Origin: Hyposmocoma kahamanoa | Taxonomy: Eukaryota; Arthropoda; Insecta; Lepidoptera; Cosmopterigidae | Assembly (NCBI RefSeq): GCF_003589595.1 | Contig: NW_020653750.1 | Location: forward strand, 6,322,005 to 6,386,004 | Reading direction: 5' to 3' | DNA: 64,000 bases | Shown: positions 10,352-64,000 of the stretch, piece after piece | Position numbering within the stretch: the stretch's first letter is position 1 | How the letters are laid out: each line of letters begins with the position of its first letter | Program-made: the position numbers and the translations under genes | Notes under the pieces: generated by a model | Told to the model about the DNA's origin: nothing | Database searches by the model: none | The model's input: only the letters and a program-made list of their open reading frames with translations

Positions 10352-13300
10352 TCAGAATAATTCCATAACCGATGCTGGTGATGCAGTGTCACGGAGATCT
10401 GTTCTTTGTTGCAATACGCGTAAGGCTTCATGTGGCAGAATGTGTCTGATGCCCTGATTGGCGAGTGTTTCGGCGCAGGTTGCTGTTTGCTTGGTAAGGA
10501 AGGAGCGAAGTCGACGCGCGTCGTCGTAGTCTAGATTTAGGAGCTTGCATGCTTCTACTAACCTAGTAACAAGATGGTAAAAAAGTATAAGTGAGTTAGG
10601 ATTCATGTGAACAACATGTATACGTACTGCCGTCCTTTATCATAAACAACGAATTGTTAACCCCCAATAAACGTTTTTTTATACGTTTCTCACGCGGGTC
10701 TGGCACCATGACCTGTATCTTCTAGTTTGTAGTGTAGCTTTGAGAGCCCTGATGACGTCCTTGTAGAGGTTTATTATTAAATTTCTAGACGTATTAGGTA
10801 CGGTAGCTTCGACATTTTGAACTTTTCCACAAAAGTGTGTGTGATGTATGTGCACGTTACAACGGCATCGTTATAAGAAATTGTATTTATAATTTAGTAT
10901 GGAGTGATACATGATGAGAGATAGCACGTACATTTGGTTCGGGAACTGTTATATATGTATAGCGGGAGGGTACGCGACCACTAACAAAGCCAGTTCGTTG
11001 CACACTGGTTTATTAACAATCGGTTAATGTTAAGACGGGGCGCAGCCCGCACACATGCACACACAAATATACAACATCCCTTCCCCTTATAAGTAGTTAA
11101 ACACATAACAAAATCCGACTCAGAATACTCTACAGATGCACTACATTCTAATCACTTAAGTCCACATCTTGTTCCGAATTGGGTGTGGCGAATACCGGGC
11201 TTATTGCCTGTCTTCGGTGGCCAGGGGCGTTCGCCCACAATGGTGATGGTGGTGTGATTGGGCATTCAGTTTGCCTGGTTTCTACCGCACCGAAACCGGT
11301 GTCCGCTGCTACACTCCCTTCCCTATTCGTTCGTGTAAATGTCTGAGCACCTGTTCCGTGAACCGGCGTCGTTTTCACGGAGCCACTGGAGTCTCTCTCC
11401 GGAGGTTCTGCAGGTTTTGGTGCTACACCTGGAACGACGTCGCAGTTCCATTGTTGATCATCCATTGATATTTCGTTAGTATGTTCTCTTATTTGGTCGA
11501 TGTGCCGTGTGACTTCGCAGTTGAGTTGCGGCACAAATATTAAGTACATTACATTTCCGATTTTTTTCCTTATTATACCGCTAATCCAACATATTTTTTT
11601 AATTTGTAAGCCAGACTTTGTCATTTACTGCGAATTCAGGTCTCGCGGTTCCCTTATAGGCTTTTCTCTGGAAAGACTGATTACGTTCCACGGTTTCAAG
11701 AAGGTCTGTGGGCGGAGGTGACGGGACGGTAGGGTTAATTAAATCTAATCTGGTACGCAAAGAGCGTCCGTAGTCTAATTCCGCGGGCGATTTGTCTGTG
11801 GTGCCGTGTTTAGAGTTCCTATAGTCGAAAAGAAATTTAGCAATTTTTTCCTGCACTAGTTTTTTATTCGGACTACTTAACTCTTTAGGCCTTTTTTTAC
11901 AATTTTAACGAAACTTTCAGCTCTTCTGAATTCCTGTGACGTGAAAGATGTACCGTTGTCAGTCACCAATGTATGCAGTAATCCTACTCGCGACATCAAC
12001 TCATACAATCTTTCCATAACCGCCTTGGAACCATAACTTGTATTCATATTGTAACATTCAACCCATTTACTATAGGCTCTAATAGGGCAATATCCACAGC
12101 TATTAAAAACATTTGATTGTTAAACGGGCCCAGGAAGTCTAGATGAACCCGATAAAACGGATGCGGCGGCAGCGGCCAAGGCGCAAGCGGCGCGCGCGGC
12201 AGCACTGGACGCAGCGCGGCGCACACGGCGCAAGCGCCCGCCAGCCTCTCCAGCGCCGCGTCTACGCCGGGGAACCACAACCGTTTTCGCGCCTCCGCTT
12301 TCATTTTAACAATTCCGAAATGAGAACTGTGTAATTCTTTGCAAATAATGTTTCGCAATGCCGCAGGAATAACAACTTTATGACCGCGCATCAAACAACC
12401 GTTTTCATACGATAGCTGTAGACGACAGTTAAAATAAGCTTTTAAATCTAAATCACCTATCTTTTTGGCCATCCTTGTAAGACATAACGCTTAACTTGAC
12501 TTAGTAAGGCATCGCGCTCAGTTTCTAGCTGCAAATCGCTCAAAGTTACCGGTAGGCTGCCCTCCAATACAAGGTTGATATAAGCCGCGCTCTCCTCGCC
12601 CTCGGCCCCGCCCCGCGCGTCACGCGCAGGCTCAAAAGTGCACCTCTGTGAATTGAGGGATTGTAACCATGGATCGTGTGATCCGTGCTCAGCGTAAAGG
12701 TGCCGGTTCAGTGTTCGTATCACACACTAAGAAAAGGAAAGGAGCGCCTAAGCTTCGTTCTATGGACTATGCAGAACGTCATGGTTACATCAAAGGCGTG
12801 GTGAAGGACATCATCCACGACCCAGGCCGTGGTGCTTCATTAGCGGTAGTCCACTTCCGTGACCCATATAAGTTTAAGACGCGCAACGAGCTATTTATCG
12901 CGCCAGAAGGTCTTTACACAGGGTAGTTTGTATACTGTGGAAAGAAAGCTACTCTCGAAGTTGGAAATGTAATGCCTGTTGGAGCCATGCCTGAGGGTAC
13001 AATTGTCTGCAATCTGGAAGAAAAGATGGGTGATCGTGGTCGGCTGGCTCGTGCTTCTGGCAACTTTGCCACAGTCATCGGTCACAACCCTGACGCCAAG
13101 CGCACCAGAGTCAAGCTGCCATCTGGTGCAAAGAAAGTTCTTCCTTCCAGCAACAGAGGAATGGTTGGCATTGTTGCTGGAGTTGGTCGTATTGACAAAC
13201 CCATCCTGAAGGCTGGTCGTGCATACCATAAATATAAGGTAAAGTGCAACTTCTGGCCATATGTGCGTGGTGTTGCCATGAACCCTGTAGAGCATCCTCA

Positions 13301-16300
13301 TGGTGGTGGTAACCATCAACATATTGGTAAGGCTTCTACTGTCAAGAGAGGAACATCCGCTGGTCGCAAGGTTGGTCTCATCGCCGCCCGCAGGACCGGA
13401 AGAATTCGCGGTGGCAAGACCGACACAAAGAAGGAGGCGTAAACGTAGTTTTATGCGAAATAAAAATACTAAAAATCCCATCCTCGTCGCCACGTGTTAT
13501 ATATGTATAGCGGGAGGGTACGCGACCACTAACAAAGCCAGTTCGTTGCACACTGGTTTATTAACAATCGGCTAATGTTAAGACGAGGCGCAGCCCGCAC
13601 ACATGCACACACAAATATACAACAGGAACTTTACAGGAAGTGGCCACGGAATGAGACAAAGCAAAAATGACGAAGAAAAAGAATTAGAGAACGATTCAAA
13701 TTTTCAAAAGTAAGTGGCCAGGAACCAGATAAAAGGGTGATAAAAAGGTGAGATGACGATGAAAGAGGTCGCAACGTCACACGTTATTTACTTTCAGTTT
13801 TATTATGAAATAAAATCAGCGTATTTGATTTTTCAAAGGAAAAAAAACTTTAGATGCCAATATGTCGAAAGATATCAAAATGCAAATGCATTATGACAAG
13901 GAGGCCAGTGTAGGTTTGGGTGAATATGTACACAGCAGCAGCGGCAACGTTATTGCGTATTGTGACTGAGACACTCTTCCTGTCTTGTTTGCTTCGTCAG
14001 AATATGGAGAAAAAGGGACAAGTATTATTTTTTCACTTTATTGAATGTCACGATGTTTGCCACCATGATATTGAATTATTTTTGTGAAATTACTCCACTA
14101 GTTTGTAATAGTTATATTAATACAAAGATGCAACAAGCACATAGGAAAGTGCGCAAGGTCCGTTAGTTCGTTCCGTAGCTTAGTTGGCATAGCGTCTGGC
14201 ACGGTTTGCTGGAAGACATTGGTTGAAATCCAGTCGGATCGACAAATTTTTTTTTAGTTATCGATCTTTGTATTAATAAGGACAACATAATATATGTCAA
14301 TGATATATGGAAATCGTTTACGATTCTTTTCTTAAGTTTATTGCCCTTTATTGCTCAATACTTGGCGCTCACTAAATTTCGAAATTAATGTTTATAGTAA
14401 AACTCATCGGCTTGCCCTGCTATAGCCTTTCAATTTTGTGTAGGTCATGCATGACACGAACACATAAACTGTACTGCATGGCACCTGACCGATTCCTTAC
14501 AAGTTCATAGTAGTCTTTCAGTACGTATTACTAGCCCTTTGGCTGTGAGCTAGTCGTGAGCTCATCATTCTAGATAGTGATCTAAATTAAAATTTTATGT
14601 GATATCATTATTAAGATACTCATACAATTTTAAACTGAAACAATAGATATATTTTTTTTATAAAAAATAAGTGCGCATTTAACCTCCATCTCACCTGATG
14701 GAAAACCTGATGATGAGGTCGAGGATGTAGCATGCATACCTAAATAACGCCTATTCACTCTCGCCTTGAAAAGGTCCAAGTTATAGCGTTCGGGGAACAA
14801 GTCTGCAGGCAGGGAATTCCACTCCCTAGCCACTCGCCATACAAATGTGGAAGAGAAACGCTCCGTGCGAATCCGGGGAATATCCACAACATAGGGGTAG
14901 AACCCAAGCCTACGACTTGTCCCCCAGTGATGGAAAGGGGAAGGCGGAATCAAATTATGCAATTCCATCGCACACTCTCAGTGATATATCCTGTAATATA
15001 CCGATAAGCTGGCAACTCTACGGCGGTGTTCAAGGCTCTGCAGCTTCGCCTCTACTAGTTCCTAGTCACCTATAAGCCTCTTACCACGCTTGTTTATTGA
15101 ATCCAAGGTGGCCAGTTGGTATTTAGCAGAGCCATCATATAAGTGGCAGCAGTAGTCCATACACGACCGGACTTGGTACAGCTGAAGCAACTGTCCCGGT
15201 GTGAAGTATAGCCTCACCTTGGAAAGGATACCAAGCTTTTTGGCTGCATTTTTGGCCATGGATTCAATGTAACTGCCGAAGTTCAGATTGGACGATAGGT
15301 CCATTCCAAGTAGGTGAAGACGGTCGGCTATCGGTATGGATATATCACGAAAAGTTGGAGTCAGGTGAAAGGGACTCCGTTTAGTGGAGAAAAGACACGC
15401 CTGCGTTTTGGTAGCATTAAATTTGACAAGATTGGCATCGCCCCAATCGGAGACTGCCTTAAGTGTCAAATTGAAAAGACTTATCATGGACTCTCGACAA
15501 AACTGGATTTCTTCTCCACTGATCCTTGCATGAGCCTGGATTTCATCTATAACACACATTAATTGTAATCCGGTATGTAACCCCCTCAAACCTGTACAAA
15601 AAACATCTTTTCAGGAAAACAACTCTTCGCACGTTCATTCACCTCCACCTTGCCAAGCCTCTCTCCTCTTATATTTTTTTAACAACCTCACCAATATCTT
15701 TCAGTGTTGCCATTTTGTTTTTTTTTATTATACCTAAATCGAATCGGTAACTTATTTATTTAAATCTGATAGTTATTGCAAGTAGTAAATAAGCATTTTG
15801 AACTAAATCATTGATTATATAGCTTTTGCTAACACAGTATTCTATTATGCGTTATTCTCTATCTGTTTTGTATATTATACAAGTCATGTACCCCACCTAC
15901 TGTGGGGTTGACCTCGGCCTGTGGCGCGTGGTTGCGCCATACGCCATGCGTAATGCATGTCCGTCCCGGAGCTCGACCAGCACAAGAACTTTAGACTAGC
16001 CAGTTAATACACTATACTTACTTCGGCAGCTGATTAATTTGCGAAGCACTCTTGTTGGGGGGTGCGAAAGCGGGTACTAGATTCCTTTTCACGTCGTGAG
16101 TGAATTGCACCGTTCCGCCTGTGTTGAACCAGTTCTCTAATACCACTTCCTGGAAAATAATTGGTTTATTGTATAATGTTTTGAGAAATGATAGCCTAGC
16201 TGGAAGTGATGCCTTCTATGCCGAAGTTTCTGGATTTATTCATTTTTCGAGCTCCTTGTGAAAGAGCTCGCCCAGGGAAGTACCTTGTGTGTAGTACATC

Positions 16301-19300
16301 TCACCTTATTGTATCGCTTCTCTCCGCTTGTATCCTATAATTTTTTTTATTTTATATGTATTTAAATTTTAAATTTGAATTGTTCCATCTTCCTTCACTT
16401 TCTCATTTTGTTTTCGTACCACGGTCACTCCCAGCTCGACCGCCACAACAGTCGGAGCTGTTTCAAATTCCATCGCGAATAATCGCTAATTCTGGTTCTT
16501 TACTACGTTTATAATCATTTAATAAGCTAAATCATGTGTAATAATTTATAACAGTCTACAGCATTCATGTACCTATATCTGTAATTCTGTTACTCGGCCC
16601 ATTTAGGGCCCTTTCTTTTAACTTTACTTCTTTAATAAATTTTGTGGACCGGAAGTTTCCCGTTTCATTGCCGTGAACCTGTTCACGGCTAGTTAGGGTT
16701 ACAACCCTTTTTAGGGTTACAACCCTTTCAACCTTAACTATTTCTGCCGCCAAGCGGTAATGTAAGCATAACGGCGTTCCGGTTTTGAAGGTGCTGGTGA
16801 CATTAGAAATACATGGGACTTGTCTCAGGGTGATAGGTGCAGTGGCAGTGCCCCTCAGATCTTTGCGATTTAAAGCTCTGACTAGCACTATGGATAGACA
16901 TGTCGCTTACCACCAGGCGCACGACCTTTTCGTCCCGTCACTTGGTATGATAAAAAATGCAAAGCGGTTCGAATTGTGTCCAAGTGAATAAAGATCAACG
17001 GTGACCTTACTTCGAAGATGTATTGGTCCAGCGCGTTGGCGAGGTGCGCGCGCAGGCGCATGGCCAGCGCAGGCGCGAGGCAGTCGCCGGCGCGCGACAT
17101 GCGGCCCACCAGCGCCGACAGCGGCCGGCACAGCGGCGCCGACACTGACAGCGCTATCTGCTCCACCATCAGCATTGCGTGCCAGCTGCAGGGAACGAAA
17201 CGCCAAGTCACATCTTAGAGTGGTTGTTACACAAGGCGACGATTAAGATCATATAACATATTAGACAACATCACATACGATCTAAAAGTAAGTAACTAAA
17301 GTATTTGTATTATTGATTTTTATTGAATTTCACGATGTGTGACGACCGTGATATTAATTTTTACTTTATACGTACACCGTGAACACAGATTGAAGTCATG
17401 TCGGGTCGAAAGAATTATTCTTTGTGTTCGATCTTTGTATTAATAAATTAAAGCACTTGTGTTATGAAAATCAGAAACCACAAACACCCAGACCCGAGAC
17501 AATATAGAAAAGTTACTTTTACCACATTGACCCGGCCAGAGATCGAACTCTGGATCTCAGAGATGGCGACACCATGAAAACCGGTGTGCAAGGCTCTCGA
17601 CCACGGAGATCATCTGAAATTCTACATACATATACTGAACTTTATCAAATTAAATGCAATTTTTTGACTCGTGTCTACTTTGTACGTTACTCAATTGACA
17701 TACAGCCTATTATGTTCCACAGCAAAGTAAATTGAGCATTATTGGTGCAGCCTGACATCTGGTTTACACGTATTAAGTGACAAAGCATTTAACTAAATTT
17801 TAACTTTAACAAAATTAAACGTTAGCTCACCAAAGTTCAAGCAACTCCTTCCGGGGAATGCAAGGGGTGCGAGAGGGTTGGCTACTTGGTAAAAAACATG
17901 TTTGATTCTGATATAATTATCCACTAAATCGATGATTAATTAAACTAAAATGTTTTTAGGATGCTCCCTGTGTCACTTCGTCATAGGGATGAGGTAAAGT
18001 CGATAGATTGTAGGTTTAATTGATTTCTGAAGCAAAGGTTCTCTCTTATACAGCCTTGTATAATATTAGGGGTTAAAGTATGAAATTGCCGTTTTATTGC
18101 AATAGGTTCTTTGAATTTTCATAGAATCTTCATGGTTTGAGGTTTTCGAATGAAACTTTTTTCAAATGGTTTCTGTGATTTTTTTTTTTTAAATTTGAAA
18201 CATTTGAATATCGACTTTCAATTGTTTTTGTTATTCAATTTAGACAAGAAAGATGGATACTGCGAAAATTCGAGTGATTTTTGAATACGAGTTCCGACGC
18301 GGAACTAACGCGGCAGAAACAGCCCGCAATATCAATGCTGCGTTTGGAGAGGGGTCTACTAATGAACGCACCGTGCGATTTTGGTTTAAACGCTTTCGTG
18401 ATGGAAATTTCGATTTAAAGAACGAGTCACGAGGAAGACCGCCCACACAGGTGAATAACGATGAATTAAGAGAGATAGTGGAAGCCGATCCTAGTCAAAC
18501 TACCCAGGAATTAGCGGCATGGTTTAACGTTACCTTACCCACAATATTGACTCACTTGCGTCAAATCAATAAAATAAAAAAATACGAAAAATGGGTGCCT
18601 CATGATTTGACTGATCTGCAGAAAGAAACGCGTGTTGAAACTTGTGTTGCCTTGTTGAACCGGTACAGAAATGAAGGAATATTGGATCGAATTGTGACAT
18701 GTGATGAAAAGTGGATTCTTTATGATAACCGGAAAAGAAAAATGCAATGGCTGACCCCAGGTCAAATGCCACAACAGTGTCCTAAAGCAAAACTTACCAA
18801 TAAAAAGGTAATGGTAACTGTTTGGTGGTCTCAGCATGGTGTTATTCACTATAGTTTTCTCCGATCTGGTCAAGCAATAACGGCAGATGTCTATTGTGCC
18901 GAACTCCGAACCATGTTGACAAAACTAGCAGTAAAACAGCCCCGACTCATGAATCGATCTTCACCATTATTGCTCCACGACAACGCGAGACCTCACACAG
19001 CACGAGAAACCATTTTGACCCTTCAGGAACTCTAGTTAGAAACCATTCGTCATCCTCCGTATTCACCAGACCTTGCTCCAACGGACTACCATTTTTTTCG
19101 TGATTTGGACAATTATCTACGTGACAAGAAGTTTTCTTCCCAGGAGGCAGTACAAAATGCTTTCACACAGTTTGTGCAGTCTAGATCGTCGGAGTTCTAT
19201 CGCAAAGGGATTAATAACCTTCCCATTAGATGGCAGCAATGTATAGATAATAATGGCAACTATTTTGATTAAATAAATTTGTTAAAAATTTAAAAAATAA

Positions 19301-62860: not shown

Positions 62861-63167
62861 TATAAATTTCTGACGTCAATCTACCAACATTCATTAAGTT
62901 TATTACAGAGTGGAACTAAATAAAGTACAATCAAAATATAACAGCTTTATTCATATCGCAAGGCTACCACAGCATGCTAAGTAGTAAGAAGTGGTTTTTG
63001 TTATAGGTATGTAAGCTCTTTAGAGAGCTTTTAGAGTTTTAAAGCTCTTTAGAGTCTTCTTCTTCGTCTTTGTTTAGTTCCTAGATTTACACATTCTTAT
63101 TAGGACAAAAACAGACTGATGGTATAAGTGTGGTGACCCCATTATATGGATAGTCCGTAAGTTTAGC

Positions 63168-64000
63168 CTTACTTAGATAGATAGATGGATGGATCGATAG
63201 ATGGATCGCTGGTTGGATCGCTGGATGGATCGCTGGATGGATCAATGGATGGATCGATGGATTGATCGATGGATGGATCTATGGATGGGTCGATGGATGT
63301 ATCGATGGATGGATCGATGGATGGTTCGATGGATGGTTCGATGGATGGATCGATGGATGTGTCTATGGCCGGATCGTTGGATGGATCTAAGGATGGAACG
63401 ACGGATGGGTCGATGGATGGATTGCTGGATGGATCGATGGATGTATCGATGGATGGATCGATGGATGTTGCGATGAATGGATCGATGGATGGATCGTTGG
63501 ATGGATCTAAGGATGGATCGACTGACTCCGGAGTCTGCATTGCACGGCCTCACTCGTCTTGGGGGCGGGTCGGAGGACAACCGACTCGCCTCTCCGTTGG
63601 TGCGGGAGCCCTGGCGTAAGCTAGGGCGGCCGGGCGGCGTCGTGGTGAATGTTCACTGATCCCACGGCGCCAACTCAACCAGCGAGAGGGAAACCCGGGG
63701 GGGTTTTAGTGGGGTAGGCCCTCCAGTCTGGAGGGAGAGTCCCCACATAACTCCTGAGTCTCCCTGGGCTCATAAAGATTTCCCCCCCGTCAAAAAAAAA
63801 ACAAAAAAAAAAGGATGGATCGACTGTTGGGTCGATGGGTCGCTGGATGGTTCGACGGATAGATCGATGGATGGATCGATAGATTGGTCGATGGATGTAT
63901 CGATGGGTAAATCGATAGATGGTTCGATGGATTGATCGATGGATGGATCGATGAATTAATCGAGGTATTGATCCAAAGGTTGGATCAACGGACGGATCGC
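63168..64000. repeat. GGATGGATCGAT minisatellite
   Basis: A 12-bp unit, made of two GGAT-like words and one CGAT, repeated from about 63168 to the window edge and interrupted at 63525-63811. The period is a multiple of three and the unit has no stop in several frames, so both strands show long DGSMDGSM- or [12 protein letters not shown] frames. These are not genes. The array continues past the window. Confidence 0.9.
63525..63811 (+). mobile_element. 5'-truncated LINE (R1-like 3' end) inside the minisatellite
   Basis: A GC-rich insert of 287 bp ends in CCCCCCCGTCAAAAAAAAAA and a second A run. Both sides carry AGGATGGATCGACTG (63510-63524 and 63812-63826), an exact 15-bp target duplication. 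Interior landmarks are GGTGAATGTTCACTGATCCC, CTCCAGTCTGGAGGGAGAGT and CTCCTGAGTCTCCCTGGGCT. The 3' UTR style resembles lepidopteran R1-clade LINEs. The clade is inferred from style only. Confidence 0.8.

Follow-up and report, generated by a model that had tools for sequence, protein, structure and literature searches.

An antisense RpL8 pseudogene joined to the tRNA-copied primer binding site of a gypsy element in Hyposmocoma kahamanoa: a probable product of misplaced second strand transfer

The 64,000-nucleotide stretch of the lepidopteran Hyposmocoma kahamanoa discussed here (contig NW_020653750.1, positions 6,322,005 to 6,386,004, or C547:6322005-6386004 in our numbering; hereafter the window) contains the remnant of a gypsy retrotransposon whose two long terminal repeats (LTRs) enclose a spliced copy of the ribosomal protein gene RpL8. 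The copy lies on the plus strand, while the sense strand of the element, as given by its integrase, primer binding site (PBS) and polypurine tract (PPT), is the minus strand, so that the insert is antisense to the element. Read along the minus strand, the order is LTR, CG, PBS, antisense RpL8, integrase remnant, 3' region, AAGGGGAAGGGA and LTR (Table 1). The genome searched comprises 728 Mb in 2,727 contigs, and the match counts given below for such searches are lower bounds.

Structurally, the two LTRs are 130 bp each, begin with TG, end with CA and differ at 2 of 130 positions. Besides these paired repeats, the element has a short target site duplication (TSD), a PBS and PPT, and a pol region of Ty3 type, for which the H2C2 domain lies in the window and the reverse transcriptase (RT) evidence comes from a relative, L021, the window element itself being without RT. 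Ty3/gypsy elements duplicate 4-6 bp of their target. The RT fragment of L021 matches Ty3 RT (4ol8, E 1.9e-25) as well as RVT_1, and the family is therefore placed in Ty3/gypsy. The window element is a non-autonomous Ty3/gypsy LTR retrotransposon remnant. Its integrase frame is apparently split across several open reading frames (ORFs), and the missing gypsy stretch would, judging from position, begin with the leader and extend to roughly where RNase H ends, a boundary that no Pfam hit marks. A preliminary description of this DNA had listed the paired LTRs with two differences, the GGAAC duplication, the PPT and the PBS, all of which were confirmed from the sequence and repeat comparison, and a gypsy integrase remnant joined to RpL8, which the H2C2 domain on the minus strand (39 bits) bears out.

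Table 1. Features of the composite element, in window coordinates
Feature	Position	Strand	Basis
Target site duplication GGAAC, left copy	10942..10946		Read from sequence
LTR (3' LTR in element sense)	10947..11076	-	Direct repeat D1, 98% to 13495-13624
Polypurine tract AAGGGGAAGGGA	11077..11088	-	Sequence; same stretch after LTR of L029
Gypsy 3' part remnant, integrase and downstream, broken frame	11089..12633	-	Relatives C694 88%, C419 86%, C1659 77-81% over parts
Integrase zinc-binding domain H2C2	12215..12370	-	Pfam PF17921, 39 bits, E 8.7e-10
Junction 1, TC common to gypsy (GCAGGCTC) and RpL8 5' untranslated region (CTTTC)	12632..12633		L021 and parent gene
RpL8 retrocopy, 5' untranslated region, coding sequence and 3' untranslated region	12632..13480	+	Against spliced parent: 13/849 substitutions, 0 indels
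RpL8 coding sequence, premature stop at codon 86 (12924-12926)	12669..13442	+	Parent comparison; Pfam Ribosomal_L2_C, E 1e-42
Junction 2, ATCCCA common to RpL8 3' untranslated region and tRNA-Ser(GCT) 3' end	13475..13480		Parent gene and tRNA comparison
Primer binding site, 18-nt complement of tRNA-Ser(GCT) 3' end including CCA	13475..13492	-	tRNA-Ser(gct) genes of the same genome
2-nt spacer, LTR to PBS	13493..13494	-	Sequence; same CG in L024
LTR (5' LTR in element sense)	13495..13624	-	Direct repeat
Target site duplication GGAAC, right copy	13625..13629		Read from sequence

A search of the whole genome with positions 12600-13495 returned six matches, one of them the window itself and the other five exon pieces from a single gene at C733:16931412-16934862. 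Among the matches listed, RpL8 is thus found at two places only, the window copy and an intron-bearing parent made up of a short 5' untranslated exon and five further exons (six in all), and on this count an amplified family of composite elements was rejected. All five GT-AG introns of the parent are precisely absent from the copy, and the spliced parent measures 849 nt, the same length as the copy. The preliminary description had reported an intronless full-length coding sequence; it is indeed full length and without introns, but it is not intact, having 13 substitutions in 849 nt and a stop at codon 86. Changes in the coding sequence comprise 8 nonsynonymous (one of them the stop) and 4 synonymous, with 1 more substitution in the 5' untranslated region, and the nonsynonymous share expected without selection is 0.754 (8 versus 4 observed, p 0.50). 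There is no sign of selection on the copy. Because of the stop and a substitution pattern that is expected without selection, a functional RpL8 retrogene is ruled out, and the copy is a pseudogene. The closest protein relative of RpL8 is 97% identical; among named proteins the highest identities are with insects (Trichogramma 88%, psyllids 86%). When RpL8 was compared by tblastn with phage records, 13 matched, each below 60% identity and bacterial L2 where annotated, which was uninformative.

The copy begins with TCAAAAGTG where the parent reads CTAGTTCTTTCAAAAG, a pyrimidine stretch of the kind with which ribosomal protein mRNAs typically start. It ends with ATCCCA, 16 nt past AATAAA, where the parent continues AGATTTTTTG. 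Judged from these sequence landmarks of the mRNA ends, the copy is probably close to the full mRNA, from cap side to poly(A) side. No poly(A) tail is present at its 3' end, where ATCCCA runs directly into the PBS. This bears on the idea that a long interspersed nuclear element (LINE) made a processed pseudogene that landed in a gypsy copy and that the flanking gypsy sequence was then deleted. Most lepidopteran retrocopies are attributed to non-LTR elements in one account (PMC11675541), and an antisense landing would require no special explanation, but the tail is absent, the RpL8 edge coincides with the end of the PBS, and no direct repeat was seen by eye around 12632-13480 at both edges, where no tool was run for repeats shorter than 25 nt. 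With both the tail and, by eye, the flanking repeats missing, a LINE origin was discounted as very improbable.

The divergence between the LTRs (2/130, 95% interval 0.2-5.4%) and that between copy and parent (13/849, 0.8-2.6%) are compatible with one event, in what is a weak test. A join of unrelated pieces in assembly was also considered. The locus is known from the assembly alone, but the copy's own 13 substitutions, the paired LTRs and the matching TSD are not expected from a chance join, and an artifact of this kind is considered extremely unlikely.

The junction of RpL8 with the PBS (junction 2) reads, on the minus strand, LTR-CG-TGGCGACGAGGATGGGAT|TTTTAGTATTTTT. The 18 nt that follow the CG spacer are complementary, without a mismatch, to the 3' end of tRNA-Ser(GCT), CCA included. 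This tRNA end was checked against the genome, in which the 20-nt pattern TTCGAATCCCATCCTCGTCG occurs at 4 exact places (0 in the reversed control), three of the four being called as tRNA-Ser(gct) by ARAGORN. Within the window the 18-mer is the sole match at up to 3 mismatches, with 0.02 expected from shuffles. The antisense parent reads AAAAAATCT|TGGGATTTTTAG, making TGGGAT common to the tRNA copy and RpL8, and the 12 nt ahead of TGGGAT in the window PBS are not RpL8 sequence. In the 853-nt mRNA, ATCCCA occurs once, at the 3' end (shuffled mRNA averages 0.16), and at every other mRNA position the agreement with the start of the tRNA 18-mer extends over no more than 4 nt; junction 2 is therefore the mRNA site of longest pairing with the tRNA-copied DNA end. 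The RpL8 edge coincides precisely with the end of the 18-nt tRNA copy, and no gypsy leader follows the window PBS, unlike in the five relatives with a readable leader (L024, L032, L040, L046 and L048). GGA at PBS positions 10-12 is found in the tRNA and is absent from RpL8 and from the L024 leader; among these five relatives only L032 has it.

At the other end of the insert (junction 1), the one relative found that crosses it, L021 on contig C1659 (77-81%), reads GCGCAGGCTC|CTGTTCC and continues with gypsy-type sequence, where the window reads GCGCAGGCTC|AAAAGTG. RpL8 here reads CTTTC|AAAAGTG, and the letters common to it and gypsy are TC (2 nt). The C1659 copy is broken: a gag piece (352658-353276) and the RT piece (L021:1-513) lie further 5', and by eye it is split by a LINE-like ORF that lies between RT and integrase. 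Ahead of its gag, neither an LTR nor a PBS was found. On the same contig, at about 6600-6665 of L022, the gag start is preceded by sequence that by eye resembles window 14060-14130 and is probably a short interspersed nuclear element (SINE) that replaced the leader.

Tan et al. are said to have described in Genome Res in 2016 a process of LTR-mediated retroposition that leaves retrocopies between LTRs. In the model as set out in PMC5408686, the template switch occurs while the cDNA emerges, before second-strand synthesis. The window shares with that process an intronless copy of a spliced host mRNA between two LTRs, a TSD outside them and short common sequence at the two junctions (6 nt and 2 nt), and minus-strand synthesis that moved from gypsy RNA onto RpL8 mRNA and then returned would account for the LTRs, TSD, intronless insert and microsimilarity (PMC5408686). 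However, a sense mRNA copied as minus strand should, as we infer from the model, lie in the same sense as the element, and the observed insert is antisense. This orientation contradicts the ordinary process unless the template was an antisense spliced RNA, which leaves it with very little probability, and template switching on the sense strand was rejected on the antisense orientation of RpL8. The window also differs in that its insert is nearly a whole mRNA and starts exactly at the end of the tRNA-copied PBS.

The strand that met the mRNA can be deduced from this orientation. Reverse transcription of an mRNA yields antisense DNA, and since that DNA here continues the LTR-PBS strand, the strand in question would be the plus strand. 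On the minus strand RpL8 reads in sense, so that this strand would not have been copied from mRNA. A plus-strand 3' end at the PBS corresponds to the end of plus-strand strong-stop DNA, which, together with a junction after the 18th tRNA base and the missing leader, points to a misdirected second strand transfer. According to PMC13191261, which draws mostly on HIV-1 evidence, plus-strand strong-stop DNA in the standard retroviral path ends after 18 nt of the tRNA, before 1-methyladenosine 58 (m1A58), and its end pairs with the minus-strand PBS; tRNA-Ser is listed there among the primer tRNAs with m1A58.

We consider it probable, though well short of certain, that plus-strand strong-stop DNA annealed to RpL8 mRNA and later rejoined gypsy at integrase, and the likely order of events would be as follows. 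A Ty3/gypsy element primed by tRNA-Ser(GCT) would have been reverse transcribed while RpL8 mRNA, presumably packaged with it, was present. Strong-stop DNA initiated at the PPT would have comprised the full LTR and the 18-nt copy of the tRNA 3' end, finishing in ...GGATGGGAT-3'. The expected target of this end in second strand transfer is the PBS complement on the minus strand; instead, its last 6 nt may have base-paired with the AUCCCA that lies at the 3' end of the RpL8 mRNA. The mRNA would then have been copied, presumably by an LTR-element reverse transcriptase, to within a few nt of its presumed 5' end, placing antisense RpL8 cDNA directly on LTR-PBS. A 2-nt TC overlap may have joined the strands at the integrase region, with leader, gag, protease, RT and RNase H omitted, and the double-stranded product with its two LTRs would have integrated and duplicated GGAAC.

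The preliminary description had taken the TSD outside the LTRs as proof that RpL8 was inside the cDNA, but the duplication shows only that an LTR element integrated. That the RpL8 edge coincides with the last base of the tRNA copy and that the leader is missing is better evidence for capture during reverse transcription. The broader claim, that RpL8 mRNA was copied by reverse transcription of an LTR element and integrated with it, survives as the best reading, though not by the TSD argument. The usual minus-strand template switch would give a sense insert and fails on the antisense orientation, a feature absent from that description.

The window LTR has at least 10 matches in the genome, 2 of them its own. 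Of the remaining 8, two (L024 and L032) retain a 5' end that includes the leader and the beginning of gag, and two (L028 and L029) retain a 3' end. In L026, L027, L030 and L031, nothing outside the LTR matched the window element. With L024 as query there were at least 21 matches, which added the more distant 5' ends L040, L046 and L048. The LTR of L024 is 98% like that of the window and its sequence reads TGGCGACGACCGAACTCGCG, then gag. Against the tRNA 18-mer, L024 matches at 9/18 (run 9; positions 10-18, 0/9), L046 at 11/18 (run 10; 2/9), L048 at 15/18 (run 9; 6/9), L040 at 8/18 (run 2; 2/9) and L032 at 15/18 (run 0 owing to the first base; 7/9). A further family copy, L019 (C694:10299700-10308000), is an internally deleted member that has at 1346-1960 an LTR, a PPT, about 450 bp and about 25 nt of an LTR end, with flanks GTTTT and GTTCT.

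These relatives matter for the strongest rival explanation, the repair of a resident gypsy copy with RpL8 cDNA, which we regard as rather unlikely. Here a double-strand break would have removed the leader to RNase H and the cDNA been joined in by microhomology (6 nt at the PBS, 2 nt at integrase), or this happened elsewhere and the composite was then retrotransposed to the site as a unit. Repair of this kind is consistent with the common letters at both junctions, with a TSD that is silent on when RpL8 entered, with the internal deletion in L019 and with the PBS of L032 and L048, which shows that a version closer to the tRNA exists in the family. Yet the RpL8 edge would have to match the end of the 18-nt tRNA copy by coincidence, the insert takes in almost the whole mRNA and has no poly(A), and among the matches listed there is one composite copy and no master copy.

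Several points weigh against a misdirected second strand transfer. The strand argument is a deduction rather than an observation, and the 18-nt stop is documented in retroviruses and would apply to this family by analogy. L032 and L048 are closer to the tRNA, which argues against any simple rule, and the donor element of the window copy was not found among the relatives detected. Given the 15/18 match of these two, a donor with a longer native PBS is possible, in which case 6 nt of common sequence would likewise be expected from a join made in DNA at a resident element.

Among known systems, a likeness is found in another insect. Pxyfem of Plutella xylostella has a reverse-complement mRNA copy adjoining the gag of an LTR retrotransposon with a 4-nt switch point, and the Pxyfem and PxyMasc retrocopies resemble the window as spliced mRNA copies reversed beside LTR retrotransposon sequence (PMC9674220). 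Pxyfem is a partial cDNA beside gag, without LTRs according to its authors, in 11 copies and with a demonstrated silencing role (PMC9674220), whereas the window has LTRs, PBS, PPT and TSD, all in one copy, and holds a pseudogene. The main text of the Pxyfem paper does not use the terms plus-strand, second strand or primer binding site, and does not appear to discuss the strand problem (PMC9674220).

Host gene sequence carried by an LTR retroelement is also a feature of Bs1 of maize, whose host genes reportedly form a hybrid ORF, to go by the title of a cited paper. Bs1 has three host genes (PMC5408686), while the window has one ribosomal protein pseudogene, in antisense.

Plus-strand strong-stop transfer in Ty elements has reportedly been treated by Lauermann and Boeke. 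In retroviral (PMC13191261) and Ty transfer, as proposed for the locus, the DNA ends in an 18-nt copy of the primer tRNA, with a stop at m1A58; the normal target is the minus-strand PBS, and the target proposed here is a host mRNA. Among the matches listed from the open-licence literature, none described plus-strand strong-stop DNA capturing a host mRNA. As LTR-mediated retroposition is already known, the plus-strand strong-stop route would be a variant of it.

The jump step by which reverse transcription captures a host mRNA is seldom visible in genomes, and in the window second strand transfer is indicated by the orientation together with a junction that falls at the last base copied from the tRNA. 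If true, this would explain antisense host copies, predict junctions after the 18th tRNA nucleotide and provide a simple genome-wide search pattern of LTR, tRNA copy and host antisense sequence. That such misdirection is a recurrent gypsy route to antisense capture of host RNA is a tentative and somewhat doubtful extension. In three of the five relatives with a readable leader the native PBS pairs with the tRNA over 9-10 nt only; a tRNA-copied 3' end might then pair poorly with the minus strand and anneal to other RNAs, and the products, antisense host copies between LTRs, may be able to give silencing RNAs as Pxyfem does. Two other sites in the genome would be further traces if so. L032/L042 (C523, ~19256914) has an 18-nt tRNA-like block, then a second PBS-like, native-looking leader and then gag; we take this for an extra block of 18 nt, a deletion in the other relatives being a possible alternative. 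L033 (C515, ~908265) has 35 nt exactly complementary to the tRNA-Ser(GCT) 3' end including CCA. This stretch lies inside an apparent LINE copy and adjoins TGAGGTGTTTG..., which has the look of an LTR, and the putative LTR has no clear match to the window LTR. It is perhaps strong-stop DNA that read beyond m1A58, next to that putative LTR.

Elsewhere in the window, positions 14169-14242 are tRNA-like by Rfam (38.3 bits) and were not called by ARAGORN. This stretch is probably a SINE head, because the region repeats: 14216-14279 recurs at 17383-17446 with 77% identity. By eye, a minus-strand ORF at 15062-15589 resembles the end of a LINE reverse transcriptase, and a 260-codon ORF at 18253-19035 has the look of a mariner-type transposase. 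Two blocks of repeats with a 12-bp period occupy 63116-63583 and 63774-63977, and the minus-strand ORF at 63169-63540 consists mostly of (I/N)DPS units.

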